Source: Paenibacillus donghaensis
GTDB taxonomy: Bacteria; Bacillota; Bacilli; Paenibacillales; Paenibacillaceae
DNA: 64,000 nt
Direction: 5' to 3'
Assembly (NCBI RefSeq): GCF_002192415.1
Contig: NZ_CP021780.1
Location: 1,178,001 to 1,242,000 of the forward strand
Shown: positions 28,422 through 45,732 of the stretch, one piece after another
Layout: each line of letters begins with the position of its first letter
Position numbering within the stretch: the stretch's first letter is position 1
Notes under the pieces: model-generated
The model's input: the letters and a program-made list of their open reading frames with translations, nothing else
Database searches by the model: none
What the model was told of the DNA's origin: nothing
Made by a program: the position numbers and the translations under genes

Positions 28422-28825
28422 TGGATCTCTCCTCTGCAATATGGATGAACATACGAATACCCTCGATTGATTGTTTTTAACTAACATGACTTTCCGCGAA
28501 GAGGTTGATATCGTCTGGTGCTATTTTACATCTCTCAGCTCTTTAAATTCAATGAAAAATGTGCGATTTAACAATTGATTCACGAATCGCGTCATGTAAT
28601 CTAACATATAAAATCTGTTGACGGTTACATGAATGGATTGATTATGCTTTTACATGGCCAACTGTTGTGATGTTCGGAAATAAAGCTCGATAATCGCAAG
28701 AGCTTCTGGATTCCATGCGGGCAGCAGCTCAGCAATCCGTGTCCTGATTAACCTATGCGCACAGAGGAAGTAGAGGAAGCCTGCCGCAGTCCAGCAAGGA
28801 TTTGGTGGGTTGTCCTGGAACGTCG

Positions 28826-29023
28826 GAGCAATTAGATGCGAAAGTGCAACTAAATTCAGCTGAAACTCCCGTAAGCAGGCGAATAAGTGCAATTCTGCAA
28901 CTAATTTCGAGTAAACCAAGCCTGATTCGCTCATATGCCGAAAATAGATGCCTTTTTGCATCTATTTCCTCCAAAACGGAGAAAAACCGCTAATTAGATG
29001 CACTTTCGCATCTAATTGATGTT
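28826..29023. repeat. Dispersed intergenic repeat, family A, copy 3
   Basis: The most complete copy: AATTAGATGCGAAAGTGCAAC, GAATAAGTGCAATTCTGCAAC, AAATAGATGCCTTTTTGCATC and TTAGATGCACTTTCGCATCTAA hairpins in series. Confidence 0.85.
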
Positions 29024-29562: not shown

Positions 29563-30575
29563 TTATTCCTCGGTCGTTTTGGCAGAGCTCGGTGTGTTCT
29601 TGTTGTTGTACATCCACAGCGCATATTCCAGCGGTCGGATCAACGCTTTGTGGTAGGTGCCGCCATCGCCGGCGCGGGCGAAGACCTCGCGGGCTGGCTT
29701 GGGGTTTACCTCCAGCACGTAGATCCGTCCCTCGCGGTCGATCGCAAGGTCAAGCGCCAGCTCGCATAAGGCGCTGAAGCTGTCCTCCAGATAAGCAGCG
29801 GCCTCCAGCCCCAGCTTCTCGGCGTTCTTGATGACCCGGTCCGACTTCTCGGCGCTGCCCAGCCATTTCTTCAGCAGAATCTCGGCCCGAACGGCATGGC
29901 CGCCGCCATGCAGATTGGAGGTAACGCTGCGGGCAGCGCCGACCCGTCCTGCCATTCCGGTGAATTCCCATACTCCGTGGCCGTTCTTCTGCACCAGCAT
30001 GCGGTAGTCGTGGAACCGCCCGCCCGGCAGTCGCAGCGGGATGCCCTGCTGGACCAGGAAACGTCCGCCGATGCACCACTGCCGCACTATGCCCTCCAGC
30101 CGGGCCTGCGACACCTTGCGCGGCGCGATGATCCGGCGGTCCTGACGGCGGCCCTGGATGTCATAGCCGCCCTTGCCCACTCGCAGCCGTTCAATCCGCA
30201 GAATGCCGCGTCCGCCGGTGCCGTTGATCGGCTTGATATAGATCACAGGATAGGCCTTCAGCATCCGCTGCAGATCGACAGAGGAATGGTAGAGCAGCGT
30301 CTCCGGCATATGCTGGCGGAAACGGGTCTTCTGCGAGAAGGTCTGGTGTATCGTCCATTTGTTGCGCAGCGGCCGGTTCAGAAACACCAGATCCTTGTAG
30401 CGCTCGCGGAACCGCAGCAGTTGCTGGAAACGCGAGCTGCGCTGGATGCGGCAGCGGTCATAGATCATATGCGGGAAGGAGCGCCACTTGCGCGACCATT
30501 TGCCGCTCTTCGGATCATATATCAGCGCATGGATCTGCTCTTTGCTAGGATGGACATCAGCTGGGGTGAACACAA
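29563..30575 (-). pseudogene. YheC/YheD-type spore ATP-grasp protein, 5' end removed by an inserted element
   Basis: About 335 residues of a YheC/YheD family protein: PADVHPSKEQIHALIYD, PHMIYDRC, PVIYIKPINGTGGRGI (ATP-grasp glycine loop), WEFTGMAGRVGA and YVLEVNPKPAREVF (metal/ATP site). The roughly 30 N-terminal residues and the native start are missing. Upstream of about 30575 the frame passes directly into the 3' end of a serine recombinase gene, and only a TTG with a weak ribosome binding site could start it. In Bacillales these proteins are spore-associated. The missing 5' end would be expected at the far end of the element and is not in this window. Confidence 0.82.
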
Positions 30576-30605
30576 TAACACATGCATCATAGACGTGGGT
30601 GCAGG
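30560..30605. other. Probable left attachment junction (attL)
   Basis: Homology to yheC/yheD ends here and the recombinase stop codon is at 30587, so the crossover core must be in this stretch. Without the other junction the exact core cannot be named. Confidence 0.5.
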
Positions 30606-32149
30606 AACAGCTCAAACTGCTCTTTATACTGGCCGGGTCCTTTTTTATAAATTACTTTGTTCAGTACGGATTTCAATAATGCATTTCTGCTCATGGGATT
30701 GTCTGTCTGGTAGTACGACTTCACTACAGATTCTGCAATAGGGATAATTTTGCTTCTTGCTTCTTTCCGGGTCAGTTCCAGATCCAGATCCTTTTGAATC
30801 TTGCTGATTTCTTCACTGGTTACTGTTATTCGTGTGGAGACATCTTGTGATCTCTCCATAAATACCTCTTCGGTATAAATTCCTCTTTCTAAGAAATCGA
30901 ACAATTTCCCTCTTTGGTTTTCCAGTTCTCTCAGCTCGATTTGTAATGAGGCTATCGCTCGTTCTTTTAGCTTGAGCTCGCTCTGCGGTGTGGTATGATT
31001 TCGTTTTCCCCATTTGATCTTATAATCGTTCAGCCAAATCTCAAGTCCTTCAACGATTCTGGCCTCCACTGAATCATAACGGCTGCTGCGTGTAGGACAA
31101 CCAACGGTACTGCAGCGAAAATGAGCAGTTTGATTGGTGTATGAGCGATAAACCATGGTCATTCCACACTCGGAGCACTTTACAAGGCCAGCCAATGCCG
31201 AGGTCATGCGTGGTTTGCCGTCCATATCGAATTGATGTGGGGAATGATGATGCTCTGAGAGCCTCTGGTTAGCCTTTAGGAAGGTTTCGTTTTCGATAAT
31301 AGGTTTATGCTTACCTTGGACGTCAATCCACTCATCGCGGCTCCTATGCCGTGAGGTGCGGCGTTTGCTTCCATCCTTGCTTTTCTTAAGTTCTTTCTTT
31401 CCCCATTGAATTCTTCCGATGTATACTTCGTTTTTAAGAATGGTTAAGACAGAAGACGCTGACCAACTACCCCCTTTATAAGAGGGGATTTTTAGTCGTT
31501 CTAATTCTGAGGCGATTTTACTGCCCCCCTTTTGTTGCTCCGGGTCTTCATGGGTATACCAAGAGAAGATTTGTCTTACAATATCAGCTTGTTCCGGATG
31601 GGGGGTTAAAGTGCGACCACGGCCATCAGCGAGATTCTCAATTAAGTATCCGTATGGAGGACGAGTTCCCAAGAAATTTCCTTCCTCTGCAGCACGCTTC
31701 CGGCCTCCTTGCATACGGCGGGTAATGATCTTGAGTTCTTTACGGGCCATAAAGGCTTCAAATTCACTGTATTCCTCATCAAATTCATCCATCAAATCAT
31801 AGGTCTTCCGTGGAGTTATAATCTTAGTCTTGGCTGAGCGGAACGTCTCCAGGATCAATCCTTGCTCTTGCATATTGCCGCGCCCCAAACGGTCAATATC
31901 CATAACCAGGACAGCATCATATTCGCCAGATTCGACCTCTTTTAATAACTGCAGCATTTCTGGACGGTGGACTAAGGTTTCACCGCTGACAATCTCTTCG
32001 CGGATGCGAATGATATTTAATTTTAGTTGCTTGGCAAGTTTGAGTAGGGCTGCCTTATGTTTGGCCAGGGTTTCACCTTCGCCGCGCCGTTCGGCGTCTT
32101 CATCTGATCTGGATTTTCGCAAGTATAGAGCTACATCCAATATGTACAT
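30587..32149 (-). CDS. Large serine recombinase (site-specific integrase)
   Basis: 520 residues. The catalytic domain starts DVALYLRKSRSDED with the nucleophilic Ser, followed by DIDRLGRGN and the recombinase domain (RPPYGYLIENLADGRGRTL). A zinc ribbon follows (CSECGMTMVYRS...CSTVGCPTR), then a coiled-coil C-terminal region. AAAGGGG precedes ATG 32149. It sits at the extreme left end of the element, reading towards the interrupted spore gene, as expected for an integrase next to its att site. Confidence 0.93.
   Translation of the reverse strand: MYILDVALYLRKSRSDEDAERRGEGETLAKHKAALLKLAKQLKLNIIRIREEIVSGETLVHRPEMLQLLKEVESGEYDAVLVMDIDRLGRGNMQEQGLILETFRSAKTKIITPRKTYDLMDEFDEEYSEFEAFMARKELKIITRRMQGGRKRAAEEGNFLGTRPPYGYLIENLADGRGRTLTPHPEQADIVRQIFSWYTHEDPEQQKGGSKIASELERLKIPSYKGGSWSASSVLTILKNEVYIGRIQWGKKELKKSKDGSKRRTSRHRSRDEWIDVQGKHKPIIENETFLKANQRLSEHHHSPHQFDMDGKPRMTSALAGLVKCSECGMTMVYRSYTNQTAHFRCSTVGCPTRSSRYDSVEARIVEGLEIWLNDYKIKWGKRNHTTPQSELKLKERAIASLQIELRELENQRGKLFDFLERGIYTEEVFMERSQDVSTRITVTSEEISKIQKDLDLELTRKEARSKIIPIAESVVKSYYQTDNPMSRNALLKSVLNKVIYKKGPGQYKEQFELFLHPRL
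31908..32045. repeat. 138-bp direct repeat, copy inside the recombinase gene
   Basis: Matches 33998-34135 with about three differences. It encodes residues of the recombinase catalytic domain (AKQLKLNIIRIREEIVSG region). Confidence 0.85.
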
Positions 32150-32250
32150 CCCCTTTAGGTTATAAGGATAATATTTATGGATGTATTATACGGGGATGGG
32201 CATGAAAAAACCACTAAATACTACTTTCCAATAGGTTGAATTATGGTCTT

Positions 32251-32706
32251 ATGTCAAAGGTTAAAGATAATTTGCTTCACTTTCTGAAGAAGGTTGAGTC
32301 GGGTGATGTTACTGCTCAAGACATTCACAATGCACAGTCCATTTTAAAGTCTTCTGTCATTATTCCGTCAAGCAGTGTACTGAGAAAAGGAAGCACGGAA
32401 ATTCGCTTGAAACATCGTGTTGAAATCACTCCAGCCTTAAAAGATATGCTCCAATCTAACGAGTACTACACAGTCCAAGAGGTTGCTGAGCGCTTCAATG
32501 TGACGGATAAAGCAGTCTACAAATGGATTAAACAAAATAAAATTGTGTGGGAACGGACCAGTCAAAATAGTAGGGACATCCGTATTCCCAAAAATCAATT
32601 TAAAAGTCCTCCTGCCAAAGCCGAGGCCTCAATTCTGGAAAAATCTATATTCAACGATGCTGTTGAAATGGAACTCGTTAATCGTAATGATCTATACCGC
32701 GATTAA
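32251..32706 (+). CDS. Excisionase-like helix-turn-helix protein
   Basis: About 151 residues. The C-terminal half holds a MerR/excisionase-type helix-turn-helix (YYTVQEVAERFNVTDKAVYKWIKQNKI, then RIPKNQF). Divergent from the large serine recombinase. It could be the recombination directionality factor or a regulator of it; this is inference from position. Start uncertain: ATG 32251, or TTG at 32236, neither with a strong site. Confidence 0.6.
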   Translation: MSKVKDNLLHFLKKVESGDVTAQDIHNAQSILKSSVIIPSSSVLRKGSTEIRLKHRVEITPALKDMLQSNEYYTVQEVAERFNVTDKAVYKWIKQNKIVWERTSQNSRDIRIPKNQFKSPPAKAEASILEKSIFNDAVEMELVNRNDLYRD

Positions 32707-32799
32707 ATTGATAGCTACTTTAGTGAAACCACACAGTTTTTCTAACGTATGATCATTATTCAAATTTTTCCAATAGGGCTCATGCGGAGGTGAACTTGA

Positions 32800-33048
32800 C
32801 TGGAGCATTTTTATGACTTGGTCCAATTGGCATTCTCGATCGCTCTCATTTCTTCCTTAGTGTTAATTCCATTCACCTATTTTTCTTTACAAGAGATACA
32901 CTGGGGTCATGAAATTGCTGCAGTCGGTTCAACTTGGTTTGTGGCTGTAAGACTGTCGCAACCCAACAGCATTCAGCGGTGGATAGTACGTATCGCCAGA
33001 CGAAGAGAAGCACCTGATGAAGACGACAATGGTCCTTCCCCACATTGA
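32800..33048 (+). CDS. MifM-like force-sensing arrest peptide upstream of yidC
   Basis: Small single-span membrane protein: LEHFYDLVQLAFSIALISSL and VLIPFTYFSL, then a cytoplasmic tail SIQRWIVRIARRREAPDEDDNGPS. In Bacillus subtilis MifM, arrest depends on an RI..WI motif and a downstream acidic DEED-like cluster; the spacing here is strikingly similar. Stalling would open the stem at 33032-33075 and free the yidC ribosome binding site. CTG 32800 has GGAGG 9 bases upstream; TTG 32818 is an alternative, and a frameshift near the start is possible. Length about 82 residues, against roughly 95 in MifM. The functional call is inference from motif and context. Confidence 0.65.
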   Translation: MEHFYDLVQLAFSIALISSLVLIPFTYFSLQEIHWGHEIAAVGSTWFVAVRLSQPNSIQRWIVRIARRREAPDEDDNGPSPH

Positions 33049-33075
33049 TATTCCATACTTTCAATTAGGGAGGAC
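33032..33075 (+). promoter_or_regulatory. mRNA stem sequestering the yidC ribosome binding site
   Basis: GTCCTTCCC (33032-33040), inside the last codons of the arrest peptide, can pair with GGGAGGAC (33068-33075) with one bulged base. This hides the yidC Shine-Dalgarno sequence. Confidence 0.7.
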
Positions 33076-33079
33076 AACG

Positions 33080-33922
33080 ATGAAAAAGATTTTGTTGCTC
33101 CAAAAATGGGCCAAGCCCATTCTCGTCATGTTGATTGGAGTTATTCCGATCATTGTGCTCAGCGGGTGTTCGACAGCATCCCAATCAAACTCGATTAATG
33201 CCGATTCATCAGGGATATTTAACCACTTTTTTATTTATCCATTTTCGATCTTGATCAAATTCTTCGCGAATGCATTTCACGGAAACTACGGATTATCGAT
33301 CGTGCTGATGACTTTCATCATCAGACTTGCGATCATGCCGCTCATGATGAATCAAACCAAGAAACAAATGGACATGAAAGAAAAGATGGCCGTCCTCCAG
33401 CCGGAGTTAACTGCACTTAAGGAGAAGTATAAGAACGACGTCAGTGCGGATGCCAAAAAACAACAGCAAGTCGAGATGATGCAGCTCTACCAGAAGCATC
33501 AATTTAATCCCTTAAACATGGGGTGTTTACCGATGCTTCTCCAATGGCCGATCACTCTCGCATTTTACTACGCCATTCGTCGTACCCCAGAGATTGCAGC
33601 TCACGATTTTCTGTGGTTTAGCTTGGGGAAAACAGATATGATTTTGCCGCTTATTGCCGCTGCGGTGTATTACGTTCAGTTCCGCGTGTCTCAATCCGTT
33701 TCAGCGCAGTATCAGCAAAATCAAAATAACCAAATGGCTTTCATCGGATTGTTGTCACCGATCATGATGGGTGTATTTTCTTTTGAGATGCCCGCCGCGT
33801 TACCATTATATTGGGCGGTTGGCGGTATATTCATTATCGTGCAAACGATCATACTCAATAAAATGTACACGAAGCCAAATGTAGCGAGTAAAAACCTCCC
33901 TACCGGTGTAGAAGATTTATAA
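33080..33922 (+). CDS. yidC: YidC/OxaA-type membrane protein insertase
   Basis: 280 residues with a lipoprotein signal (IIVLSGC), a 60KD_IMP domain starting FIYPFSILIKFFANAFHGNYGLSIV, the conserved TFIIRLAIMPLMMNQTKK loop with the cavity Arg, and FNPLNMGCLPMLLQWPITLAFYYAI. Inserts membrane proteins together with or without SecYEG. Encoded in the acquired region beside a MifM-like regulator, so it is probably a YidC2-type inducible backup of the housekeeping copy. TAGGGAGG precedes ATG 33080. Confidence 0.93.
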   Translation: MKKILLLQKWAKPILVMLIGVIPIIVLSGCSTASQSNSINADSSGIFNHFFIYPFSILIKFFANAFHGNYGLSIVLMTFIIRLAIMPLMMNQTKKQMDMKEKMAVLQPELTALKEKYKNDVSADAKKQQQVEMMQLYQKHQFNPLNMGCLPMLLQWPITLAFYYAIRRTPEIAAHDFLWFSLGKTDMILPLIAAAVYYVQFRVSQSVSAQYQQNQNNQMAFIGLLSPIMMGVFSFEMPAALPLYWAVGGIFIIVQTIILNKMYTKPNVASKNLPTGVEDL

Positions 33923-33957
33923 AATTGAACCAGTTATATAACAATACTAAATACAAG

Positions 33958-33993
33958 GCATCTGAGACGCGACCTCAGATGCTTTGTTTTTTA
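33958..33993 (+). terminator. Terminator of the yidC unit
   Basis: GCATCTGAG pairs with CTCAGATGC, followed by TTTGTTTTTT. Confidence 0.85.
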
Positions 33994-33997
33994 TGTG

Positions 33998-34135
33998 AGG
34001 ATAGCATCATATTCGCTAGATTCGACCTCTTTTAATAACTGCAGCATTTCTGGAGGGTGGACTAAGGTTTCACCGCTGACAATCTCTTCGCGGATGCGAA
34101 TGATATTTAATTTTAGTTGCTTGGCAAGTTTGAGT
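33998..34135. repeat. 138-bp direct repeat, second copy of recombinase gene segment
   Basis: Nearly identical to 31908-32045. It begins right after the yidC terminator and ends abruptly at 34135, leaving an isolated slice of recombinase coding sequence on the minus strand. Confidence 0.85.
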
Positions 34136-34232
34136 TCGGCTGGGCGGGAATATTTCATGGGCATCCGCCCAAGCAACCTTTCCGCGAATGCATATGATGA
34201 TTATGCCTACTCATTGAAAGGAGCGATCACAT

Positions 34233-34631
34233 ATGGGATTTTTTCCAACGCCGGGAACCGGCGGAGGATTCCCGGGGTTCCCGGGCGGACCTGGCGTGCC
34301 GGGAGGATCGGGTTTTCCAGGTGGAAGTCCCGGTGGATTTCCGGGGACTCCGGGACCTCCAGGAGGTGCACCGGGAGGCGTTCAAGCGCCGACGGCTCCT
34401 CCACCGCAATTCCTACCGCAAATGCCGGTCACCACATTTGCCATCGACCCGGGCGGGATCAGACGCTGTTTGTTCCGTAACACATACATTTGGCTGAACA
34501 ACGGCGAGCAATTCTGGTTCTTCCCGGTATTCGTCGGACGTAATTCTATTGCAGGGTTCAGATGGTTCGGTTTCTCCTGGGCATACTTCGGCATTGATTT
34601 GAATCGGATTAGCTCGTTCACATGCTTCTAA
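34233..34631 (+). CDS. Collagen-like Gly-rich surface protein with conserved aromatic C-terminus
   Basis: 132 residues. Residues 8-50 are Gly-X-Y-like with many Pro (GFPGFPGGPGVPGG, GTPGPPGG), then a Pro-rich linker. The compact C-terminal domain (RRCLFRNTYIWLNNG, GFRWFGFSWAYFGIDLNRISSF) is of a type seen in small Bacillales spore-surface proteins. No signal peptide, which fits mother-cell assembly on spores. AAGGAG precedes ATG 34233. Exosporium or coat role is inference. Confidence 0.7.
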   Translation: MGFFPTPGTGGGFPGFPGGPGVPGGSGFPGGSPGGFPGTPGPPGGAPGGVQAPTAPPPQFLPQMPVTTFAIDPGGIRRCLFRNTYIWLNNGEQFWFFPVFVGRNSIAGFRWFGFSWAYFGIDLNRISSFTCF

Positions 34632-34641
34632 GCAGACAGCG

Positions 34642-34671
34642 AAAGAGAACAGCCTACGGGCTGTTCTCTTT
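34642..34671 (+). terminator. Terminator of the collagen-like gene
   Basis: AAAGAGAACAGCC pairs perfectly with GGCTGTTCTCTTT around TACG. The following 34672-34870 is AT-rich and shows no gene. Confidence 0.9.
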
Positions 34672-34889
34672 GTTATGCTGCTTCTCGTGTCTGCGGTTGT
34701 GAGCAAGGCGAGTTATGCGGTTAACGGTGAAAGAGCTAATCACTTTTCTTAACAAAAGGGTAATTACATTAGATTAAGAAAGAGTATATTTTATCTGCAA
34801 TTAATTTCAACGTCAATCTTCTAACTCATATGTTTGATAGTATTTTTAACATATAATCTCTTTAATACCTAAAGGAGGTGAATTTTATA

Positions 34890-34990
34890 TGAAAACGGAA
34901 GAACAAGAATTGCTTGCAGCCATTTTGGAAGTCACCGAAGAATTTGATAGCGTCATTACACGTGAGAACAACGTCAATAACATTCACTAG
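34890..34990 (+). CDS. 33-aa precursor-like peptide of a B12-radical-SAM locus
   Basis: A near-perfect ribosome binding site (AAAGGAGGTGA) precedes ATG 34890. The product has an acidic helical first half (KTEEQELLAAILEVTEEFD) and a distinct tail, SVITRENNVNNIH. Followed 74 bases later by a cobalamin-binding radical SAM gene and then an exporter, which is the layout of a RiPP operon. Candidate modified residues are in the Asn-rich tail. It is not recognised as any named peptide family. Confidence 0.65.
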
Positions 34991-35064
34991 CAACTCTCCG
35001 CAGCCCAGCCTCCTCATTGAATCTCCAAATGAGGAGGTATTCTCTTCATTATGGAGGTCTTGGA

Positions 35065-37280
35065 ATGGTAAAAACTGCGCTTATATACCCTCCTATCAGC
35101 GATCCTACTTCGGGTTATCACAGCCTTTGTTGTTTGGCGGGCTATGCGCGGCAATTCGGCTTTGAAGATATTGATATTATTGACAGCAACATTGACTCAT
35201 GGCTGTATACCGTAGCACCTGAGCAAATCGGGAGAACCATGCAATATATCAATGAACGAACTGCGCAGCTTCAAGCACTGGAACAACCCACGCCCATTGA
35301 ACAAATGGAGCTTTTTTACGCGCTCAAAGTACAAGACATGAATTTTGTCGAGGCGCTGCCAGCCGCGTTGCATACTTTCCGTCATGAAACAGAATTTTTT
35401 GACTACAGGATGTATACCAGCGCCGTTGAGACGGTAATGCTCTGGATGGATGCCTTATCTTTAAAGGGCTTCCCGGGGCAATTCAAGGGGTTCAGCTTAG
35501 CCACCACCGGATTTTTCAATATATTTAGCTCCTTGGATATGCGCGATACTCGAATCACCGAAGTGATCTCTCAACCTTTCACCGACTATTTCAGGAACGA
35601 ATTGATTCCTGGCATCATCATAGGCGACTATTCCCTCGTTGGTATCAGTATCACCTATGTCGCCCAAATTCCTTTCGCACTCAGCATGGCACAGCACATT
35701 CGGAGAAGCTGCCCGGAAATCCGGATTATATTTGGCGGTACCCCCGTCTCTGATTACTGGAAATATATTTTGAACAAAACCGATTTTTATGCGGTATTTG
35801 ACTCTGCAGACGCCTGCATCATCGGTGAAGGTGAAAGTGCCTTGGTCTCTATCCTCCAGGCATTGAAGCACAATAAGCCGTTGCCTGCGTCTCCGAATAT
35901 TGCACTGCATCCCCGATATCAAGCCGTGCCTGACACATCCGCGCTGGAAATCAAATACGAAGATATCTGCTCCTTTCCGGCGCCGGAGTACAGCAAGCTG
36001 CCCTGGGAGAAATACCTATCCCCATTTCCGTTCATTTACTATTCTCCTTCGCGGGGATGTTATTGGAACCGGTGCACCTTTTGTGATTACGGCTTGAATA
36101 CCGATTCGCCTACCAGTCCCTGGCGGCAATACCCGCTGGATAAAATTATGGAAGATTTGAGGACGCTCGCCGTCACCTACAAATATATTTATTTCTCAGT
36201 GGACGTGCTTTCTCCGGCCTTGCTGTTGAAGCTGGCGGCGGCGATCCTGGAAGAAGGCCTCGACATGGAGCGGAGATCCGGTTGGAGGAATACTGGACGC
36301 CTGAACGCTGTGATTTGCTGCATAAAAGCGGATGTACCGCCATCTCGGTCGGATTTGAATCCGGCAACCAACGGATATTGAATCTGATCAATAAAGGAAC
36401 CAAGGTCGACCGGCTGCAGGAAACCATTCAAATGTTCAGCGAAGCCGGCATCGGCGTACAAATTATGGGATTTACCGGATTCCCTACGGAAACGGTTGAC
36501 GATGCCTTGAGTTCCGTTGATTTTCTGCAGCATAACAGCAGGCACTGGACTTTTGGCGGGCTTGGCCAGTTCGTCTTAACCAAAGGCGCCATTATAGCCA
36601 AAGAACCGGAGCGTTTCGGTATTCTCGATATCCGGCCTTTTGAGGGCGAAGATATCGCCTGGAGGCTGTATTACAGTGAGCAAAAGCACTTGCTTGCAAA
36701 TTCTTCACGTTGCGGGTCGAAGGAGCTGACACAAGCCAAAGCATCCTTGAGGGCCAATCAGTTTGACCGTCCTTGGGTGGGGGGAGTGGATACGGCGCAT
36801 TCGATGTTCTACCACGACCGGTTCGGGAACAACATCCTCAAAGTCATCAGCGGCGCAAATCATACGGCAGCTAACGAGAGCACAATCTTGGAATTAAATG
36901 GGCATCTTATTGAGGAACACTATTACCTTCCTGTCCACAAGCTGTTTAACAAAAAGAACTTGGATAACATACTTGACACATCCGAACGCGAAGGAAAGGC
37001 AGTCACCGCGCAAAATATAACTGAACTTCTTCAACAATGGGAACCGGATTATTCCAGTTACCCGCAGCCAAAAGAACAGCAGCTGTTCGTCCGGCGGGAT
37101 GGCACTCTTTTTCCGTTTCCTGTACCCATGATCGAGTTTTTGCGGAATTTCGAACATGGCTTAAGTTTGACGGAACTGCTGCAGCAATCTACACAGCATG
37201 AGTTCCATACCCAACTATGGCAACACTGTATCACCAACCGGTTTCTGCGGCTGAAACGGTCACCGGCAGCGGAAGCTTGA
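35065..37280 (+). CDS. Cobalamin-binding radical SAM protein (frameshifted)
   Basis: About 738 residues when two frames are joined. Residues 1-290 resemble a B12-binding Rossmann region (TALIYPPISDPTSGYHSL, GISITYVAQIPFALSM, IIFGGTPVSDYW, CIIGEGESAL). The radical SAM cluster motif is RGCYWNRCTFCDYG with Cys 332, 337 and 340, spacing CX4CX2C rather than CX3CX2C. The frame breaks between about 36265 and 36282; SVGFESGNQRIL, a radical SAM barrel motif, continues in the second frame to 37280. One missing base explains the break. GGAGG lies 10 bases upstream of ATG 35065. Likely a peptide-modifying enzyme (methylation or C-C bond formation); the reaction is not determined. Confidence 0.82.
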
Positions 37281-37311
37281 AGATCGTTGGACAAAGGAGG
37301 TGTGTTCTCAG

Positions 37312-38598
37312 TTGAACTCCGCAATCAGCAAACCTAATTACAGACTCCTGCTAAAGCATAATGCCGACTTTCGCTATTTATGGCTAGCCCGTGCATGCTC
37401 CTTCTTTGGGGATTCCTTATACAATCTGGCGATCAGCTGGCTCGTGTACTCGATGACCGGCTCCTCGCTCCAGGTGGGGCTGGTGATTGTCGCCAAGTTC
37501 CTGCCGGAAATGGTACTCGGTTTATTCATTGGCGCCTGGGTAGACCGCTTGAACAAAAAGATTTTGATGCAGATCTCCGATGCCGCTCAGGCCCTGCTCA
37601 CCGGAACCCTTGCTGTATTGATGATAACCGGGCAGCTTCAGCTGCTGCATATCTATCTGATTACAGTCGGTTTATCGATTATGGGCAATCTGTTTGCAAC
37701 TTCGCAGAGCTCTTGGATGCCGGAGCTCATCGCGGATAAAACCTATCTCATCTCAGCCAATTCACTGCTGTCCGTTTCCCTGCAAATCACCCGTATTCTC
37801 GGTACGGTTGCAGGTGGAATATTGGTGGCCTCCATTGGGAATTCAGGGGCCGTGATTGTGGATGCGGTAACCTTTATCGTCTCGCTCGCCCTGATTCAGC
37901 GGATTAAGCAACGCAGCAAGGCCGAGAAGAATTCCGGCGCCGCCACCGACTTGTCCATCTTCGCGGAAATCCGTGAGGGCTGGAAATGGCTGCGGGGACA
38001 AACTGCCTTGCTCCTGCTCATCCTTCTCGGTACGCTCAGCAATATTGCCTTAGGACCAAGCAATGTGCTTCCCCCCATGCTGATCGAGGAGTTGCTGCAA
38101 GGCGGTTCCAGCGAGCTCGGTATTTTTAATGCAGCTATAGCTGTCGGGTTGCTTCTGGGCGGGCTGTTCGTCGGCAGCAAGTCCCCCCGGAGAATCGGTC
38201 TCTGGTTCTCCTGTGGACTGGGTGTTCAAGGCCTTGGCATGTGTGTGATCGCATTATCTCCCGTACTCTGGACGGCTTGCTTCGGCAACTTGATTTTGGG
38301 CTTTGGAGTGACAGTCACTGTGATCCCGATGAGCACCTTGTTCCAGTTGCTTGTTCCGTCTCCGCTTCGGGGACGTGTCAACAGCATCAGCTCCATGGCC
38401 TTTAACATCTCCATCCCGTTAACCTATGGCGGAGTAGGTATTCTGGCCGACAGAATCGGTGTGGAAGTATGTTTCGGTCTTGCCGCTATCCTGTTTGCCG
38501 TTTGTCTGATCATCGGGCTGACCAATCATCATCTGCGCAGCCTCGACATAAAAGCTCCACAGTCCTCCCGTTCACCTCAAACCGGTCAATCTGTATAA
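37312..38598 (+). CDS. MFS transporter, probable exporter of the peptide locus
   Basis: 428 residues, twelve predicted membrane helices, MFS_3-type: DFRYLWLARACSFFGDSLYNLAISWLVY, GLFIGAWVDRLNKK (loop 2-3 motif) and RGRVNSISSMAFNISIPL. AAAGGAGG lies upstream; TTG 37312 is the most likely start. It lies 31 bases after the radical SAM gene, so it is probably in the same operon and exports the mature product or gives self-protection. Confidence 0.85.
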   Translation: MNSAISKPNYRLLLKHNADFRYLWLARACSFFGDSLYNLAISWLVYSMTGSSLQVGLVIVAKFLPEMVLGLFIGAWVDRLNKKILMQISDAAQALLTGTLAVLMITGQLQLLHIYLITVGLSIMGNLFATSQSSWMPELIADKTYLISANSLLSVSLQITRILGTVAGGILVASIGNSGAVIVDAVTFIVSLALIQRIKQRSKAEKNSGAATDLSIFAEIREGWKWLRGQTALLLLILLGTLSNIALGPSNVLPPMLIEELLQGGSSELGIFNAAIAVGLLLGGLFVGSKSPRRIGLWFSCGLGVQGLGMCVIALSPVLWTACFGNLILGFGVTVTVIPMSTLFQLLVPSPLRGRVNSISSMAFNISIPLTYGGVGILADRIGVEVCFGLAAILFAVCLIIGLTNHHLRSLDIKAPQSSRSPQTGQSV

Positions 38599-38697
38599 GT
38601 AATTTAGGTTCAGTAACAAGTTACGGGAGAATCGACGAAATTCTACAAATGGAAGACGCGGAGAAAGAAGGGTCACGGGTCGTTGTCGATTATTGTG

Positions 38698-38949
38698 TCA
38701 GCCTGACTTTCTCTCCTGGCGATCCTGGTAGTTCCGCCAGCGGTTTAACGCAGTCAGCTGTTCCTTCATCTCCATTCGGGCTTGGAGGGACGTGATGGAG
38801 TACCCAAAACCTTGCTTGTTCATCGCACGAAGCTGGTTGTTTTTCCCTTCCGTTTTCGCTTTGGAGATTTTGCAAAGGAGCCGGTTCATGATTTCGGGAA
38901 GCCAGTTCCAGACGGTTCGGATAGGAAAAATCGCAGCAAAAAGATCCAT
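38698..38949 (-). pseudogene. ISL3-type transposase C-terminal remnant
   Basis: About 83 residues matching the transposase end, with KTEGKNNQLRAMNKQGFGYSITSL as the typical motif before the stop. No 5' part is present. Confidence 0.6.
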
Positions 38950-38972
38950 CTAATGATGGATCTTTTTGCTGC
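38933..38972. terminator. Perfect 18-bp hairpin
   Basis: GCAGCAAAAAGATCCATC with its complement around TAAT. It overlaps the start side of the transposase remnant and could serve as terminator for the MFS operon. Confidence 0.65.
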
Positions 38973-39018
38973 GGATATGGTTGGCAGAGATATGTATTGC
39001 GTTAATTGAAGAATTATA

Positions 39019-39462
39019 TCAATCAAATTCATTGTCTGACAGTTGCTTTAGATGCTCCAGACCCGGTGGGATACCATATAATACGGCTGCTTCTTGCAAA
39101 GTGAAATCCGTGTGTTTAGATTCGTACAATAATTCGTCCGGCATCAGCAGTTCCACAGCGAATTGATTGGCCTGTCGTTCGATACGATCTACAGAATAGA
39201 GGGTATGTCTTCTCAAAAAGGGTGTATTAACATCAGGATGCAGAATCACATGTCCCAGTTCATGAGCGCATGTGAAGCGCTGATCTTGTTGTGAGGATTC
39301 ATTATTAATATGGATCATTTTTAATCGACGACTGGAATTGTAGTAGCCTAACATATCGCCCAACAATTCATATAACACCAGGACTTTTCTCTGCGATGCA
39401 ATTTCGAATGGGTTATTGGTCCGGTGTTTCTTGATGAGTTGGGTTACAGTAGATTTAATCAC
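39019..39462 (-). CDS. ImmA/IrrE family metallopeptidase
   Basis: 147 residues with the zinc motif in CAHELGHVILH and a downstream RIERQANQFAVELLMP Glu ligand. Such proteases cleave the partner phage or ICE repressor upon damage or signals. GTG 39462 follows AAAGGG and lies 18 bases after the repressor stop, so both are co-transcribed. Confidence 0.9.
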   Translation of the reverse strand: MIKSTVTQLIKKHRTNNPFEIASQRKVLVLYELLGDMLGYYNSSRRLKMIHINNESSQQDQRFTCAHELGHVILHPDVNTPFLRRHTLYSVDRIERQANQFAVELLMPDELLYESKHTDFTLQEAAVLYGIPPGLEHLKQLSDNEFD

Positions 39463-39480
39463 GCTGTATCCCTTTCATAG

Positions 39481-39948
39481 CTAATCCCTGTATTTTTTTG
39501 GAGTGAACTTCTGCTTAGATACTTCTCTGGCCAACCGAAGAGAATTCTCAAGAGAAATAGCAAACAACCTTTTAGTTTCCTCATCCATAGGTTCTCCGTT
39601 AAAAGCTAATGCCTCGTTTGATTCTAAATCTGCCAGTATACGATCCAGGTCTTTGCCGATGTCTTTCTTGTCTTTATCAGATATTTCGTAATATTTGGAA
39701 TCAGAATTTGAAATGTTTTCTTGTCCTTCTAAGTAACCCATAGCCCTCATTAAGTCATCGCTATCAGCATTCTTTAGAAATGGAGCCAATGCAATTAAAT
39801 TCTCAGGCGTAACCTTGTGAGTTCCAGACTCGATGCGGTTTATAGTGGAATGGCTTACTCCGGATTTAACAGCAAGTTCTCTTTGACTCCTAAATCCACT
39901 CTCTTCTCTTAATTTCGCAAAATATATCCCAAACTCTTTTAAGTTCAT
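39481..39948 (-). CDS. XRE family repressor of a phage/ICE-type switch
   Basis: 155 residues. N-terminal helix-turn-helix (YFAKLREESGFRSQRELAVKSGVSHSTINRIESG), then a helical C-terminal region. Encoded with an ImmA protease and divergent from a Cro-like gene, with operators between them. ATG 39948 is preferred over GTG 39957. Confidence 0.9.
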   Translation of the reverse strand: MNLKEFGIYFAKLREESGFRSQRELAVKSGVSHSTINRIESGTHKVTPENLIALAPFLKNADSDDLMRAMGYLEGQENISNSDSKYYEISDKDKKDIGKDLDRILADLESNEALAFNGEPMDEETKRLFAISLENSLRLAREVSKQKFTPKKYRD

Positions 39949-39980
39949 ATGTATCACCCAATCCTAGTTTAACAGAAAGT

Positions 39981-40041
39981 GTTTCAAGTATGAAACAATC
40001 GTTTGTTTCATTCGTGAAATATAATGTTTCATTCGTGATAC
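39981..40041. promoter_or_regulatory. Three repressor operators
   Basis: GTTTCAAGTATGAAAC (39981), GTTTCATTCGTGAAAT (40005) and GTTTCATTCGTGATAC (40026) are 16-bp dyads at 24 and 21 base steps. A weaker fourth, GTAACAAGTGTGAGAC, is at 40061. Confidence 0.85.
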
Positions 40042-40094
40042 AAAGGTGGAATATTTTTTTGTAACAAGTGTGAGACAGGAGGTGCTGTACAGAG

Positions 40095-40283
40095 ATGAAA
40101 GTAATTCCTAAACCAGGAATCATTAATCAACTACAAGAAGAAAAGTGTATGTCTGAGCAAGAATTTGCAGATTTCGTAGGGACTTCAAGGTCTTCGCTGT
40201 GGAGAGCAAAGCTATCGTCAGATGATAAACGTTTTTCTTTAGGGCAAGATGTAATGGCAAAAATACTAAGGAAGTTTTCCTGA
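40095..40283 (+). CDS. Cro-like small helix-turn-helix protein
   Basis: 62 residues: CMSEQEFADFVGTSRSSLWRAKL is a compact helix-turn-helix. AGGAGGTG precedes ATG 40095. Divergent from the repressor across the three operators, so it is the first gene of the lytic or transfer direction. Confidence 0.75.
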   Translation: MKVIPKPGIINQLQEEKCMSEQEFADFVGTSRSSLWRAKLSSDDKRFSLGQDVMAKILRKFS

Positions 40284-40450
40284 AAAGTCGTTTGAAGACA
40301 TATTTTTTTTGGAGTTCTTGTCTCAAACGTGTTACAAAAATATTTCTGACGAAATTGTTTTAATTTTTGAGTATGTCCCTGTACCTGAAAGTACAAGTGG
40401 CTTCTTTACTTTCGGTAATCAATATCTTTTGAAAAGGAGTTGATAAAAAC

Positions 40451-40678
40451 ATGGTAGTCCCACACACCATCCAGCATACACATAAAGCCAGGGGGGATGC
40501 TGGCATGATTGTTGCAAGCTACACATTCGGGGAGACGAAGGTTCATATCTGCGATGACCATATTGCCAAGAGCCCAGAAGAGCGTGAGAAAGTCGATACA
40601 GCAATTGCAGATGCTGCATGGGCCTGTTTACAGGATGCAGCAGACTCCATGAAGGATGTCTCTGAGTCTACTCTATAA
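40451..40678 (+). CDS. Hypothetical small protein (75 aa)
   Basis: AAAAGGAG precedes ATG 40451. Acidic C-terminal half with two Cys (HICDD and AWACLQDAADS). Family not recognised. Confidence 0.6.
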   Translation: MVVPHTIQHTHKARGDAGMIVASYTFGETKVHICDDHIAKSPEEREKVDTAIADAAWACLQDAADSMKDVSESTL

Positions 40679-40796
40679 GTATAGCTATTATTAGAAAAAA
40701 TTATACGTAGATTTTTACGTTATGGATTATCCGGTGACAGAAATCCATATCCGAATTTAAAGAAGTGTCTTAATACATTATGGAGGGAGCCACGAC

Positions 40797-41192
40797 ATGG
40801 GGAACTTTGAGAATTTGCTGAATATAGAAGTGCGCTTAACGGGAAAGAGGGAGGAAATTGAATTGATTAAACACAGACGGCGTGTTCTTTTCAATGATGT
40901 TGATGCAAATGAGAAAGAAATAATTAGCCTTCATTATGAAATTGAATTTAAAAAGCTTGAATTGTTGCATGTCAAACGGGAGCAGATCACCCTCTTGAGG
41001 AACTCGACTGATGTACACGACAGAACGATCTATTTGCAGCAGCTAAGCCGACTCCAGTTGTTAAATGAAAAGTGCATCACCATTCAGGTTAAACAGTTAT
41101 TCGAGGAAGGCTATGGCCTGGAACTGAAGCAGCGTGGACTCATAACAGGATATGAAGAGGCAGAGCCTACAGAACAGACGAAGGTGATCTAA
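40797..41192 (+). CDS. Hypothetical coiled-coil protein (131 aa)
   Basis: GGAGGGAG precedes ATG 40797. Highly charged and mainly helical (LTGKREEIELIKHRRRVLF, FKKLELLHVKREQITLL). No known motif. The next gene starts 1 base after its stop. Confidence 0.65.
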   Translation: MGNFENLLNIEVRLTGKREEIELIKHRRRVLFNDVDANEKEIISLHYEIEFKKLELLHVKREQITLLRNSTDVHDRTIYLQQLSRLQLLNEKCITIQVKQLFEEGYGLELKQRGLITGYEEAEPTEQTKVI

Positions 41193-41193
41193 C

Positions 41194-41454
41194 TTGAGTA
41201 AGTTTCAGAATAATGAGCGACTTCCTGATCATCGTATGAACGAAAAAGATAAAGCAGAGTTTGCTGAAGCGTTGGCATTCAGATATGTCCAGTTAACGCT
41301 TCTAGCTAATTCTGCTAACCATGCACGCTATTGGGTTGATCAAACGACAGCACAGTCTGCTGAAGAACTGGAACGTCTATCTAAGATTCTGTCGGATCTT
41401 CCTGAAGATATTCAAGAACTAGTGAACGAAAGCATTCGATTACACCAACAATGA
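41194..41454 (+). CDS. Hypothetical protein (86 aa)
   Basis: TTG start with AAGGTGAT upstream, coupled to the preceding gene. Helical, with HARYWVDQTTAQSAEELERL. Unknown family. Confidence 0.6.
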   Translation: MSKFQNNERLPDHRMNEKDKAEFAEALAFRYVQLTLLANSANHARYWVDQTTAQSAEELERLSKILSDLPEDIQELVNESIRLHQQ

Positions 41455-41576
41455 GGACAGGCCTTGGCCTTGTCTCCATGCTTGTTCTTTACTTACGGAC
41501 AAGCATGGAGATGCGGCTAACGCATCCAGAAGCGCTGAACGCAAAATTGCGCTGAGCTACTAAGGAGGTGAATAAA

Positions 41577-41789
41577 ATGGATACCGAAGCAAAGCAAACA
41601 CAGATACTTCAAGCAGCTCGAAATTGGCAGAGATATCGGGGCAGCATTACAGACAAAGTCGTAAATCTGATGTTGGACGCCGGGTTGAGCATCTACGATG
41701 CACGAATTGTTCTGGACGAAGCCCAAGGTTCGCTCAACATTAGATCGTGGGGAAAGGAAGGAGAGCTAACGAAAGCAAACTTTGATTAA
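41577..41789 (+). CDS. Hypothetical protein (70 aa)
   Basis: AAGGAGGTGAA precedes ATG 41577. Contains VVNLMLDAGLSIYDARIVLDEAQ, a motif echoed by the product at 43252 (LIDLLINEGLCVSRVNQIMDLV), so the two may be paralogues. Confidence 0.65.
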   Translation: MDTEAKQTQILQAARNWQRYRGSITDKVVNLMLDAGLSIYDARIVLDEAQGSLNIRSWGKEGELTKANFD

Positions 41790-41925
41790 TAGTATCGCTC
41801 TACTCTTTCTATCCATAATTTATATTCTTTTCCCTCTTTATGTTGCGCCCAATAATAAATATCTGATCTTGTAAAACTCAACGCAAAATTGCGTTAAGCC
41901 CAATCCTGAGAACGGGGATGGAGAT

Positions 41926-42102
41926 GTGAAGTCCTTAGTAAACGATAAACCTTTAACTAAAAGTATGGTCGGAGAGCGCATATGGGCGTTGCAAAGTACA
42001 GATGAAGCAGCCTTTCAACGGGAACTCATTACGTATTTTGAGCGCGGTTATTCAGGATATTCCATAGTGGGCATTGAGTATCCATATATCTTTTTGCAGT
42101 GA
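41926..42102 (+). CDS. Hypothetical protein (58 aa), GTG start
   Basis: GTG 41926 after GGGGATGGAG. The product contains MVGERIWALQST and ELITYFERGYSGYSIVGIEYPY. Its stop lies 11 bases before the next start. The palindrome CGCAAAATTGCG lies 33 bases upstream. Confidence 0.5.
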   Translation: MKSLVNDKPLTKSMVGERIWALQSTDEAAFQRELITYFERGYSGYSIVGIEYPYIFLQ

Positions 42103-42113
42103 GGAGGCTAGTA

Positions 42114-42299
42114 ATGAAGAAAGAAATGAACATTATACATTGTACTTTGCAAAGATGCTTTGACGTTGGAACAGACGACACTTTTCTATCTCAAATCATT
42201 TCGATGTTTCGCCGCAAATGGCGGGGGCAGACACTTGTTTTGTCTTTCATTGACGACATGGAGGTAAGATTTATATCCTCTTTTAGAACTTACAGATAG
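42114..42299 (+). CDS. Hypothetical protein (61 aa)
   Basis: GAGGAGG precedes ATG 42114. Basic region MFRRKWRGQTLVLSF; no recognised family. Confidence 0.5.
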   Translation: MKKEMNIIHCTLQRCFDVGTDDTFLSQIISMFRRKWRGQTLVLSFIDDMEVRFISSFRTYR

Positions 42300-42368
42300 C
42301 GAAAGGAAGAGAAGTCTGTAGGAATCATGAGGATTTTAACGTCCCACAAATCTAAGGAGGATGGCAAC

Positions 42369-42536
42369 ATGAAGCAATGGAGTAATAATGCTTGCCTGGG
42401 ATATATCCTGGCTGCTCTGAAGCGTAAAGGCTGGTCCAAAGCACAGATTAAGGAAGTCACTCATGCCGTATATTTTGAATTTGACTTCAAGAGCATTAAG
42501 GAAGCTGCCGATCTGTATGAAAGATCATTTGATTAA
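42369..42536 (+). CDS. Hypothetical protein (55 aa)
   Basis: AAGGAGG precedes ATG 42369. Contains LKRKGWSKAQIKEVTHAVYFEFDF. Unknown family. Confidence 0.55.
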   Translation: MKQWSNNACLGYILAALKRKGWSKAQIKEVTHAVYFEFDFKSIKEAADLYERSFD

Positions 42537-42619
42537 TCGGCTTATGGTGGTAAAGGACGGTGCTGAATTCTAGTAAAAGAAATAACGAGTATCTGCTAAC
42601 AACGGAAGGAGTGAATGAT

Positions 42620-42895
42620 ATGGGGACTGCGAATTCCCTGCCGGTGATCACTGGCAGAGCTGCTGCTGAATATCTGCAGGACTGGTTGCACATTTCAGCG
42701 ATTGTGAAGGTAGTGTCGGATGACAGGAAGCATCTCTATTTTAGAGGCAAGGATCAGATCGGAAGACGGATGGAATATCGGGTTGAGGCTGTAGCAGAAG
42801 CTGATTACCACAACATTTACGAACGAACTCCAAATCCAGAACAACCGGAACCCTGGGAATGGGCTGATGCGATCCCTGTGAGGCGAGAGGGCTAA
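42620..42895 (+). CDS. Hypothetical protein (91 aa)
   Basis: GGAAGGAG lies 8 bases upstream of ATG 42620; GTG 42611 is an alternative. The Trp-rich tail PEQPEPWEWADAIPVRR is distinctive. Unknown function. Confidence 0.6.
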   Translation: MGTANSLPVITGRAAAEYLQDWLHISAIVKVVSDDRKHLYFRGKDQIGRRMEYRVEAVAEADYHNIYERTPNPEQPEPWEWADAIPVRREG

Positions 42896-42957
42896 AGTCA
42901 AGGCCAGTCAACATATACGAATGAGATCATCTGAATTCTTGAAAGGAATGATCAGTG

Positions 42958-43119
42958 ATGGATACAGGAGAAGAGATTATGCACGAATTAGAAGCGGGTA
43001 TCTCGTTGTTGGAAAAGCACAATTTGGTCGATGCAGCCAATGTCCTGCGGAATCGACTGGCATCCTACCGGCAGCTTATGGATGAACTCGGCCGCCTGGA
43101 ATTCACACGTATCCTTTAA
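42958..43119 (+). CDS. Hypothetical helical protein (53 aa)
   Basis: GAAAGGAATG lies upstream of ATG 42958. Two helices: LEAGISLLEKHNLVDAANVL and RLASYRQLMDELGRL. Confidence 0.5.
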   Translation: MDTGEEIMHELEAGISLLEKHNLVDAANVLRNRLASYRQLMDELGRLEFTRIL

Positions 43120-43251
43120 TAGGCAACCCGCCTAATGATGGCTGGAGGGATACCAGTCGAAACCCAACCGGTCAGCACGGGAGGGCTGCGGAATCTGCCA
43201 TTTGAGAAGCTTGTGTTCTCGGTGTTACAAGGATTAGGAAGGAGGGGGAAA

Positions 43252-43446
43252 ATGGACGGTAAAACTTTTGCTGCTGAATTAAGAGAGGTATCAACATGGG
43301 AACTAAGGGAGCGTTTTAATAACGAGAATTTGGCTATTTCTGATAAGTTGATTGATTTGTTAATTAATGAAGGTCTTTGTGTGTCACGTGTCAACCAGAT
43401 TATGGACTTAGTAAAGAAAAGAGTTTTGGAACGACCCTTAGCTTAG
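43252..43446 (+). CDS. Hypothetical protein (64 aa)
   Basis: AGGAGGGGG precedes ATG 43252, favouring this start over 43135. Shares an LIDLLINEGLCVSRVNQIMD motif with the 41577 product. Confidence 0.55.
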   Translation: MDGKTFAAELREVSTWELRERFNNENLAISDKLIDLLINEGLCVSRVNQIMDLVKKRVLERPLA

Positions 43447-43450
43447 CTGA

Positions 43451-43494
43451 TTAACTCGCCTAGAGGGCATGTTATTCCCTCTTAGGCGAGTTAA
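43451..43494. terminator. Terminator between convergent small genes
   Basis: TTAACTCGCCTA and AGGG pair with CCCT and TAGGCGAGTTAA. Confidence 0.8.
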
Positions 43495-43501
43495 ACCAAC
43501 A

Positions 43502-43723
43502 TCAATCTTGACTTAGAAATTTACGTGATTCTCTTGCATAACTTTTTAGTTCTTCGGGTTTAACAGTAGCTAATGCTTCTAGAAAAGAACTGTAGACTCC
43601 CACGTATGTGCTGATAATTTCATCAATATTTAACTTTTCGAATTTGTTTGGATTAACTTTATCGAGAGCAGCAATTGTAAGATCTTTAGCAACGAGATTA
43701 ATGCATTCGTTTAATTCAGCCAA
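43502..43723 (-). CDS. Hypothetical helical protein (73 aa)
   Basis: TTG 43723 preceded by AAAGGAGGTAA. Contains IDEIISTYVGVYSSFLEAL. Convergent with the 43252 gene; unknown family. Confidence 0.6.
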   Translation of the reverse strand: MAELNECINLVAKDLTIAALDKVNPNKFEKLNIDEIISTYVGVYSSFLEALATVKPEELKSYARESRKFLSQD

Positions 43724-43817
43724 AACTATTACCTCCTTTCAAGGAAAAAAATGAAATAAAATTCTATTTTAGCAGAAATTAGTAGTTTGTAACCAATTTC
43801 GTAAAAGTATAGAAAGG

Positions 43818-44036
43818 ATGAGTGGTTTGGACTCTGAGTATCCGGTATTTATTGCAGCACAAATGCTTAGATTTGTAAATCAGGACTCCTATTTAACCTT
43901 AGTGTATAGGGATTTCTTGAAAAGAGGTCATGCCTCAGAAAAAGCTTTAGAGATACTGTTTAACGGAAATGTGTTGGAAGATTCGGTCATGACTCGTGAG
44001 TATGAATTATATGCTAAAGAAGGAGAGAGAAAATAA
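43818..44036 (+). CDS. Hypothetical protein (72 aa)
   Basis: Start is ATG 43818 or TTG 43827; GAAAGG sits too close to the ATG and suits the TTG better. The stop overlaps the next ATG (TAATG). Confidence 0.5.
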   Translation: MSGLDSEYPVFIAAQMLRFVNQDSYLTLVYRDFLKRGHASEKALEILFNGNVLEDSVMTREYELYAKEGERK

Positions 44037-44338
44037 TGCCACTGGTATTTAAACGTCCCCTGTACGCAGGGGACATCTTTGAAGGAGAGATTCAAGGCCT
44101 CTTTGTACAAGCGCATGTATTTTCAGATCCATCCTCGTATGGGATATCAGAAGGTCGAATCAGTCGGTTGACGGTGTATCCGAATCAACAAAAAGAGTTC
44201 GGTAAACATCTGGCTAATTATGATCGGGGCTGGGATGGTAAACCTCCGGAAGACAGCAAGATTCGTGCAGTTACTGAAGCGGTAATCAGGCAATTTGATG
44301 ATAAGGCGGTAGATTGGCGGTTTGAGGCTTCGCGTTAG
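44036..44338 (+). CDS. Hypothetical phage-type protein (100 aa)
   Basis: Contains YPNQQKEFGKHLANYDRGWDG and a C-terminal helical region, similar to small proteins common in Firmicute phage or ICE early regions. AAGGAGAGAG lies upstream of ATG 44036. Confidence 0.6.
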   Translation: MPLVFKRPLYAGDIFEGEIQGLFVQAHVFSDPSSYGISEGRISRLTVYPNQQKEFGKHLANYDRGWDGKPPEDSKIRAVTEAVIRQFDDKAVDWRFEASR

Positions 44339-44372
44339 ATTGCGAAAAGTCCAATTGGTTAGGAGGTGAATT

Positions 44373-44558
44373 ATGCAGCTTGGTCTGTTTGAACAAATGA
44401 TTTTGTGTCGTGTATTAACGGAAGCAGAATACAAAGAAGTCCAATATGCACATTCGAATGATAGATGCCATGTATTTCATACGGATATCGGTCTGGTCGC
44501 TGTTGATCGGGAAACGGGGAAATTCGATTCCAAGGATTATAAACAGATGTTTCAATAG
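44373..44558 (+). CDS. Hypothetical protein (61 aa)
   Basis: AGGAGGTGAA precedes ATG 44373. Contains CRVLTEAEYKEVQYAHSND. Unknown family. Confidence 0.55.
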   Translation: MQLGLFEQMILCRVLTEAEYKEVQYAHSNDRCHVFHTDIGLVAVDRETGKFDSKDYKQMFQ

Positions 44559-44643
44559 ATTGCCTTGATGAAATAGTGCTGTCACTCAATCTGCATGAAT
44601 CATAGTGAAGTGTGAGTGATGGATAGTAGACGCATACTGCGCA

Positions 44644-44892
44644 TTAGGGAAGAAAAGGTCGTTTTGATAACGAAATGATGTTTTTGTCCTTATCATCACC
44701 ATGGTCCGCATTATCTTCTATCTCTTTTTTCTCATCGTGAAACTCAACAAGAGAATGGGCCGTGATGTAGTCAAATGGAGTGTAATTATTACTTGGTAAT
44801 TTTCTTGTAAGTAATATCTTGACAATGATGATTCCTAATAAGAGATTTAAAATTCCGAATCCTCCAACCAACATGAATTGTACCAAGTTCAT
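44644..44892 (-). CDS. DUF3951 family membrane protein
   Basis: 82 residues. One membrane helix (LVGGFGILNLLLGIIIVKIL), then TRKLPSNNYTPFDYITAHS, the conserved core of DUF3951, and a charged cytoplasmic tail. ATG 44892 has AAGGCGGTG upstream. Confidence 0.75.
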   Translation of the reverse strand: MNLVQFMLVGGFGILNLLLGIIIVKILLTRKLPSNNYTPFDYITAHSLVEFHDEKKEIEDNADHGDDKDKNIISLSKRPFLP

Positions 44893-45050
44893 TGTTAACA
44901 CCGCCTTTGTTTGATTTTATAATTAAATGTTAATATTTTCAAGATACAAGGTTGCTGAGTGCTATTCATTCGACCGAGATTTGATGCACAGTACGAAGAT
45001 ACTGAACAATAGACGCAAACGGTGTAATAGAAGGGGGTGTATATTGGGAA

Positions 45051-45215: not shown

Positions 45216-45222
45216 TTGTATG

Positions 45223-45510: not shown

Positions 45511-45732
45511 TTTATTTTTACCCTCCATACATTTACATATAATACATATAACACATATATGCATTATATGTAAAACGAACCAGAGATTCCGATTCTTAAA
45601 TTTTTATACTATCAGACTCATATTGATATTACGTAGTACGAAGATACGGTCTCATTAAGGGAGTAGGAGTATCCCTCCTCTCCCACAGGTTATGACCGTA
45701 GTAGATACAAACTGTGAAGGAGCGTGTGTGAA

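Follow-up and report, generated by a model that had tools for sequence, protein, structure and literature searches.

We describe a three-gene locus of Paenibacillus donghaensis that probably represents an undescribed family of ribosomally synthesized and post-translationally modified peptides (RiPPs), in which a leader-guided B12-binding radical S-adenosylmethionine (SAM) enzyme modifies an asparagine-rich core. The locus was found in a stretch of 64,000 nucleotides, referred to here as the window (positions 1,178,001 to 1,242,000 of contig NZ_CP021780.1, assembly GCF_002192415.1), which is part of an 8.54-Mb contig. It consists of a gene for a 33-residue peptide, the enzyme gene, and a gene for an exporter of the major facilitator superfamily (MFS), all on the forward strand. 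A small peptide gene accompanies the enzyme in every close relative found, and it evolves as a protein.

Results

The candidate precursor peptide

The peptide gene (34889..34990, stop codon 34988-34990) encodes MKTEEQELLAAILEVTEEFDSVITRENNVNNIH, which has an acidic, leader-like part at approximately residues 1-24 and an Asn-rich, core-like tail, NNVNNIH. It stands behind a strong ribosome-binding site, AAAGGAGGTGA (34871..34881, forward strand), and a strong Shine-Dalgarno sequence occurs at the matching place in the Paenibacillus relatives. An earlier reading of the window from its letters alone (the sequence-only reading) had already described such a peptide behind a perfect ribosome-binding site; the open reading frame (ORF) and the strength of the site stand, and the start had to be moved one base upstream, to 34889.

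A small ORF adjoins the enzyme gene in all 15 genomes where the enzyme is at least 44% identical to that of the window, 13 times upstream and twice in divergent orientation. These genomes comprise ten of Paenibacillus, the present one counted, and five of another family, probably Tumebacillus; a sixteenth locus, L056, was excluded since its enzyme (29%) looks like another kind. Homologous enzymes lacking a small ORF, which the sequence-only reading had named as the finding that would speak against it, were not encountered among these loci. The tail that it proposed to look for beside similar radical SAM genes recurs: at least three of the last eight residues are Asn in 14 of the 15 small ORFs, where the tail sits behind varied N-terminal parts. 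The extreme case is NNNNNNN and the exception is a peptide ending in PPSNIVIIQ.

The nine other Paenibacillus genomes have an identical gene order, with 70-75 bases between the end of a 33-residue peptide gene and the enzyme start. The peptide is likewise upstream in three of the five loci of the second family (MSLLAQVKTITANVERTRNETNNININ; MDLNNLLSEVEGITSEIEQVQLIDDTNNNNNNN; MSLLAQVKAVTVAVESTRNATNNINIKG). The last of these belongs to L055, probably Tumebacillus avium, where by eye the enzyme gene is split by transposase-like genes and the peptide ORF, with a TTG start, is still open approximately 3-3.7 kb before the main enzyme piece. The two divergent peptides are those of L053, which ends in ...EQKTNNNVIC, and of L054, where a leader with an uncertain start codon is followed by six tandem TVPTQNTNNNVC units.

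The small ORF evolves as a protein. Among eight close species, the pooled ratio of nonsynonymous to synonymous polymorphism (pN/pS) is 0.15 in frame, compared with 0.91 and 1.66 when the frame is shifted; it amounts to 0.17 for residues 1-23 and 0.10 for residues 24-33, and the enzyme gene gives 0.16 over its first 600 bases. The pattern is also rare outside the enzyme loci. In 18 stretches (711,826 bases with both strands counted, some stretches repeating one locus), 68 ORFs of 20-110 residues follow a 7-base Shine-Dalgarno match, and 17 of them have at least three Asn in the last eight residues. Fifteen of these 17 lie beside the enzyme gene and represent 13 distinct loci, two of which were seen twice; the remaining two are one unrelated membrane peptide, also seen twice. 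The filter missed the L054 peptide, which has a weak Shine-Dalgarno sequence, and the L057 peptide, which has one Asn. Neither Pfam nor NCBIfam gave a match to the 33-residue peptide up to E 0.1. A shortened form of the L054 precursor matched nothing in a protein search, and a tblastn search of plasmids with the L053 precursor was likewise empty.

The enzyme and its break in this genome

The B12-radical-SAM gene with a CX4CX2C motif and the MFS gene after it, both anticipated by the sequence-only reading, are present, and the enzyme gene is frameshifted: seven bases are missing relative to all eight relatives compared, and intact copies exist in relatives, for example P. phytohabitans and P. 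borealis. Piece A (35065..36381, forward strand) contains the B12-binding domain and the CX4CX2C motif before running into a premature stop; piece B (36282..37280, forward strand), in another frame, supplies the remaining half of the radical SAM barrel together with the C-terminal region. The domains are recognized over their cut-offs, PF02310 in piece A (33.7 bits, cut-off 32.1) and PF04055 in piece B (41.5 bits, cut-off 29.5). The intact enzyme of relative L011 passes both, and that of L012 scores 31.8 for PF02310, just below the cut-off. We found no second copy: an intact relative's enzyme matched only the two pieces in the genome (E 1e-60), and the sole other match to piece B was 31% over 77 residues. 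The enzyme of this genome is probably dead and the pathway probably inactive; the loss looks recent because the peptide and exporter frames remain open.

The motif codons (CYWNRCTFC, 36058..36084, Cys codons at 36058, 36073 and 36082, forward strand) mark the presumed [4Fe-4S]/SAM site. Their spacing, flagged earlier as unusual beside the common CX3CX2C, is a fixed property of the group, with C336, C341 and C344 unchanged in all 49 sequences aligned, which were drawn from chosen loci and from the 120 listed among 620 matches. A Sinorhizobium homologue with 36% identity also has CX4CX2C, and the distant L056 protein has CX3CX2C instead. The DxHxxG motif is absent from the L012 enzyme.

No NCBIfam cut-off is reached by the enzyme. 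The highest-scoring model for the intact relatives is the PhpK family of radical SAM P-methyltransferases (TIGR04479; 100.5 and 107.6 bits, cut-off 600), and the best-scoring RiPP C-methyltransferase model is TIGR03975, rSAM_ocin_1 (85.5 bits for L012 and 90.5 for L011, cut-off 281.85), a family of RiPP maturation radical SAM C-methyltransferases. The model of ApyD (NF050148), a radical SAM protein of RiPP biosynthesis with detectable similarity across the B12 and radical SAM domains, gives 62.9 and 58 bits, short of its cut-off of 750. Among the solved structures, sequence search found only AprD4 (6fd2, E 1e-5). The structures of OxsB, TsrM, AprD4, MgmA, TokK and CysS are 14-18% identical to the enzyme, and the listed alignments to them stop short of the C-terminal domain, mostly by residue 609 and in one case at 652. 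Among the matches listed, named homologues carry general names only, such as 'B12-binding domain-containing radical SAM protein'.

That C-terminal domain (36879..37277, forward strand, modelled on the intact L012 enzyme) appears to resemble a RiPP recognition element (RRE). Its model ranks RiPP proteins first, with middling scores (TigE 9.0, MccB 8.2, TruD 7.4, TbiB1 7.4, PqqD 6.0), and the best Foldseek E value, 0.41, is not significant by itself; we regard the resemblance as suggestive.

Neighbouring genes and richer relatives

The MFS exporter gene (37312..38598, forward strand, with a possible alternative GTG start at 37300) has an open frame, and an MFS partner at least 44% identical is adjacent in 13 of the 15 loci. 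The divergent clusters L053 and L054 also have an MFS gene, 25-28% identical over part of its length. Within approximately 6.3 kb upstream of their B12-radical-SAM gene these two clusters contain richer RiPP-like gene sets, with a peptide ending in TNNNVIC or TNNNVC. Domain searches were run on L053. Its further radical SAM protein has as nearest model TIGR04463, a RiPP maturase model of the SPASM type (204.8 of 525 bits), with the SPASM domain under the cut-off. A flavoprotein passes the cut-off for PF02441 and is nearest in NCBIfam to CoaBC, under that model's cut-off, and the TldD domain PF19289 is present in two proteins. L054 has the same gene order, protein starts that are similar by eye, and two PF19289 matches. 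Because the L053 and L054 cores end in Cys, decarboxylation of the C-terminal Cys by the flavoprotein is a natural guess.

We found no leader protease in the three-gene locus, the search having covered proteases of the TldD type. PF19289 matches occur in five of the eight genomes searched and in none of G000, G164 and G180, which speaks against TldD as the general leader protease.

Two more distant clusters were also seen. L050, on the Sinorhizobium meliloti plasmid pAK76 (typed conjugative), contains at 5062-9470 a flavoprotein, the 36%-identical enzyme, a 72-residue ORF and two 2-oxoglutarate/Fe oxygenases. The flavoprotein scores 26.7 of 215 bits for the CypD peptide-Cys decarboxylase model, and the 72-residue ORF ends in GGQNC, unlike the locus peptide, with a weak Frankia_peptide match below the cut-off. 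L056 contains at 5720-10543 an MFS gene, the distant B12-radical-SAM protein with CX3CX2C and, by eye, a PqqD-like tail, and a protein resembling multinuclear non-heme iron-dependent oxidative enzymes (MNIO), nearest to BufB and ApyH below their cut-offs. No peptide of the Asn-tailed type was seen upstream in L056, and this cluster is perhaps of biphenomycin-like make-up.

Distribution

The enzyme occurs in 10 of the 394 genomes of a family search, all in the genus of the window and its own genome counted. Six of seven genomes of the second family match, five at 44-52% identity and one distantly at 29-32%. A class search gave 8 of 398 genomes, of which two had been counted before with the ten Paenibacillus, and a phylum search 1 of 398, the genome itself. 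Two other Bacilli groups gave 0 of 80 and 0 of 199, and such empty answers show little. One plasmid record matched, and viral contigs contained only distant B12-radical-SAM proteins at 20-26% identity. Homologues in Cytobacillus, Halobacillus, Brevibacillus and actinobacteria such as Micromonospora, Streptomyces and Actinoplanes are known as proteins alone.

Possible regulatory elements and flanks

A stem folds between the peptide and enzyme genes (35008..35038, forward strand) in the window and in 11 relatives. In 7 of these 12, the window among them, its folding energy is lower than the average of single-base shuffles by more than two standard deviations. The strongest hairpins, in L027 and L026, have -53.8 and -36.5 kcal/mol compared with -29.2 and -22.4 for the shuffles; L017, L020, L021 and L023 are 1.2-1.7 standard deviations below, and L018 is not below. 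The ordinary reading, a dosage device that favours precursor over enzyme, is moderately supported. A TATAAT box just 5' of the peptide gene (34852..34857, forward strand), a possible -10 element, is shared by 8 of 10 aligned upstream regions (the window counted); a consensus promoter scan picked no promoter there.

The nearest gene 5' of the peptide (34233-34631, forward strand) encodes a 132-residue protein whose N-terminal part is rich in Gly and Pro and resembles collagen; Pfam gave no match to the protein up to E 0.1. Farther upstream, a large serine recombinase gene (30587-32149, reverse strand; Resolvase, Recombinase and zinc ribbon domains) adjoins a YheC/D-like ATP-grasp gene (29563-30615), and a 145-base piece of the recombinase gene is repeated at 96.6% identity at 33998-34142, 5' of the peptide locus; together they look like mobile-element debris. 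Downstream, at 39019-39957 (reverse strand), an ImmA/IrrE-like peptidase and helix-turn-helix repressor pair precedes numerous small ORFs, an arrangement like that at the border of a prophage or integrative element. Dispersed repeats of approximately 200 bases, 71-85% identical and in both orientations, occur at 14094-14334, 22509-22706, 28789-29018 and 49222-49418. Since the flanks (30001-34780 and 38621-46000) have no match in 11 Paenibacillus stretches at E 1e-10, the sequence suggests that the peptide, enzyme and MFS genes move as one unit.

Discussion

The RRE-like domain, the gene partners in two relatives and the unmet NCBIfam cut-offs fit the candidate new RiPP class that the sequence-only reading had put forward. 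We propose that the 33-residue peptide is the precursor, with its acidic N-terminal part as leader and its Asn-rich last 7-10 residues as core. The leader would be bound by the RRE-like C-terminal domain, and the core would enter the barrel, in which unactivated carbons of Asn, Val or Ile would react with the help of cobalamin, the [4Fe-4S] cluster and SAM. The site and kind of modification are conjectural; the sequence-only reading named methylation or carbon-carbon chemistry, and we lean slightly towards C-methylation of core Asn, Val or Ile residues. A protease, presumably encoded at another place in the genome, would then cut the peptide, and the MFS protein would export it.

The reaction is not fixed by cofactor and fold, because OxsB and AprD4, which are not methyltransferases, rank among methyltransferases. 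It is conceivable, though rather unlikely, that within such a RiPP pathway the enzyme does not methylate the peptide and instead cross-links carbon to carbon or carbon to a heteroatom, or alters it in some other way. In the available parts of PMC12707348 and PMC12257519, BipD and PbsB of biphenomycin-type pathways are B12-radical-SAM enzymes that act on a short ribosomal precursor, are clustered with an MFS gene, as here, and a metalloprotease gene, and can couple carbons, the role of B12 there being unclear. The available part of PMC12707348, however, describes the B12-radical-SAM enzymes of RiPP pathways as mostly methyltransferases, and biaryl chemistry is unlikely because the tails have no aromatic residue other than His. 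The present locus differs from these pathways in that it is without MNIO, arginase or hydroxylase and its Asn-rich tail lacks the FRF or YxY motif.

Two further explanations deny the peptide its role as precursor. Single-residue runs at the end of an ORF followed by a hairpin ahead of the next gene recall the his leader peptide, and the small ORF could be an attenuator whose Asn codons sense Asn-tRNA while the hairpin controls the enzyme gene. We consider this hardly credible: the reading fails because the peptide and enzyme genes diverge in two relatives and the core unit of the peptide is repeated six times in one; residues 1-23 are under selection at the protein level, the locus showed no gene for Asn metabolism, and the enzyme carries what the model suggests is an RRE-like domain. 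It is also improbable that the enzyme has a small molecule or lipid as its substrate, with the peptide an unrelated conserved gene, for example a signal, in a shared operon. The nearest family models do include PhpK, HpnR and HpnJ, which are named for such substrates, but peptide and enzyme occur together in two bacterial families and in two different gene arrangements, relatives sit beside other RiPP-type enzymes, and the putative RRE-like domain would again point to a peptide substrate.

Among known systems, proteusins of the polytheonamide type combine B12-radical-SAM methyltransferases with cores in which Asn, Ile and Val are abundant. They differ in that the precursor here has 33 residues and a core of 7-10, there is no second radical SAM gene at the locus, and, because this precursor has no Pfam match, no nitrile-hydratase-like leader. 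A C-terminal RRE is described for proteusin epimerases in the part of PMC8326336 available. Among the papers listed, titles and the beginnings of abstracts named no Asn-rich precursor with such an enzyme; subscription journals were mostly outside reach, so this is no proof of novelty. The literature passages at hand held no radical modification of Asn runs.

Returning to the RiPP reading, we put forward more tentatively a class whose hallmark would be a B12-radical-SAM enzyme with CX4CX2C and a fused RRE. This enzyme might rewrite Asn runs, for example by C-methylating several consecutive Asn side chains or linking them, and the class would occur in Paenibacillus, Tumebacillus-type bacteria and, by enzyme homology only, many actinobacteria. 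With a peptide, one enzyme and one exporter, the locus may rank among the smallest RiPP systems built on a radical SAM enzyme, and in one relative the core is seven consecutive asparagines. A curated model of the clade would flag an enzyme family that now carries general names.
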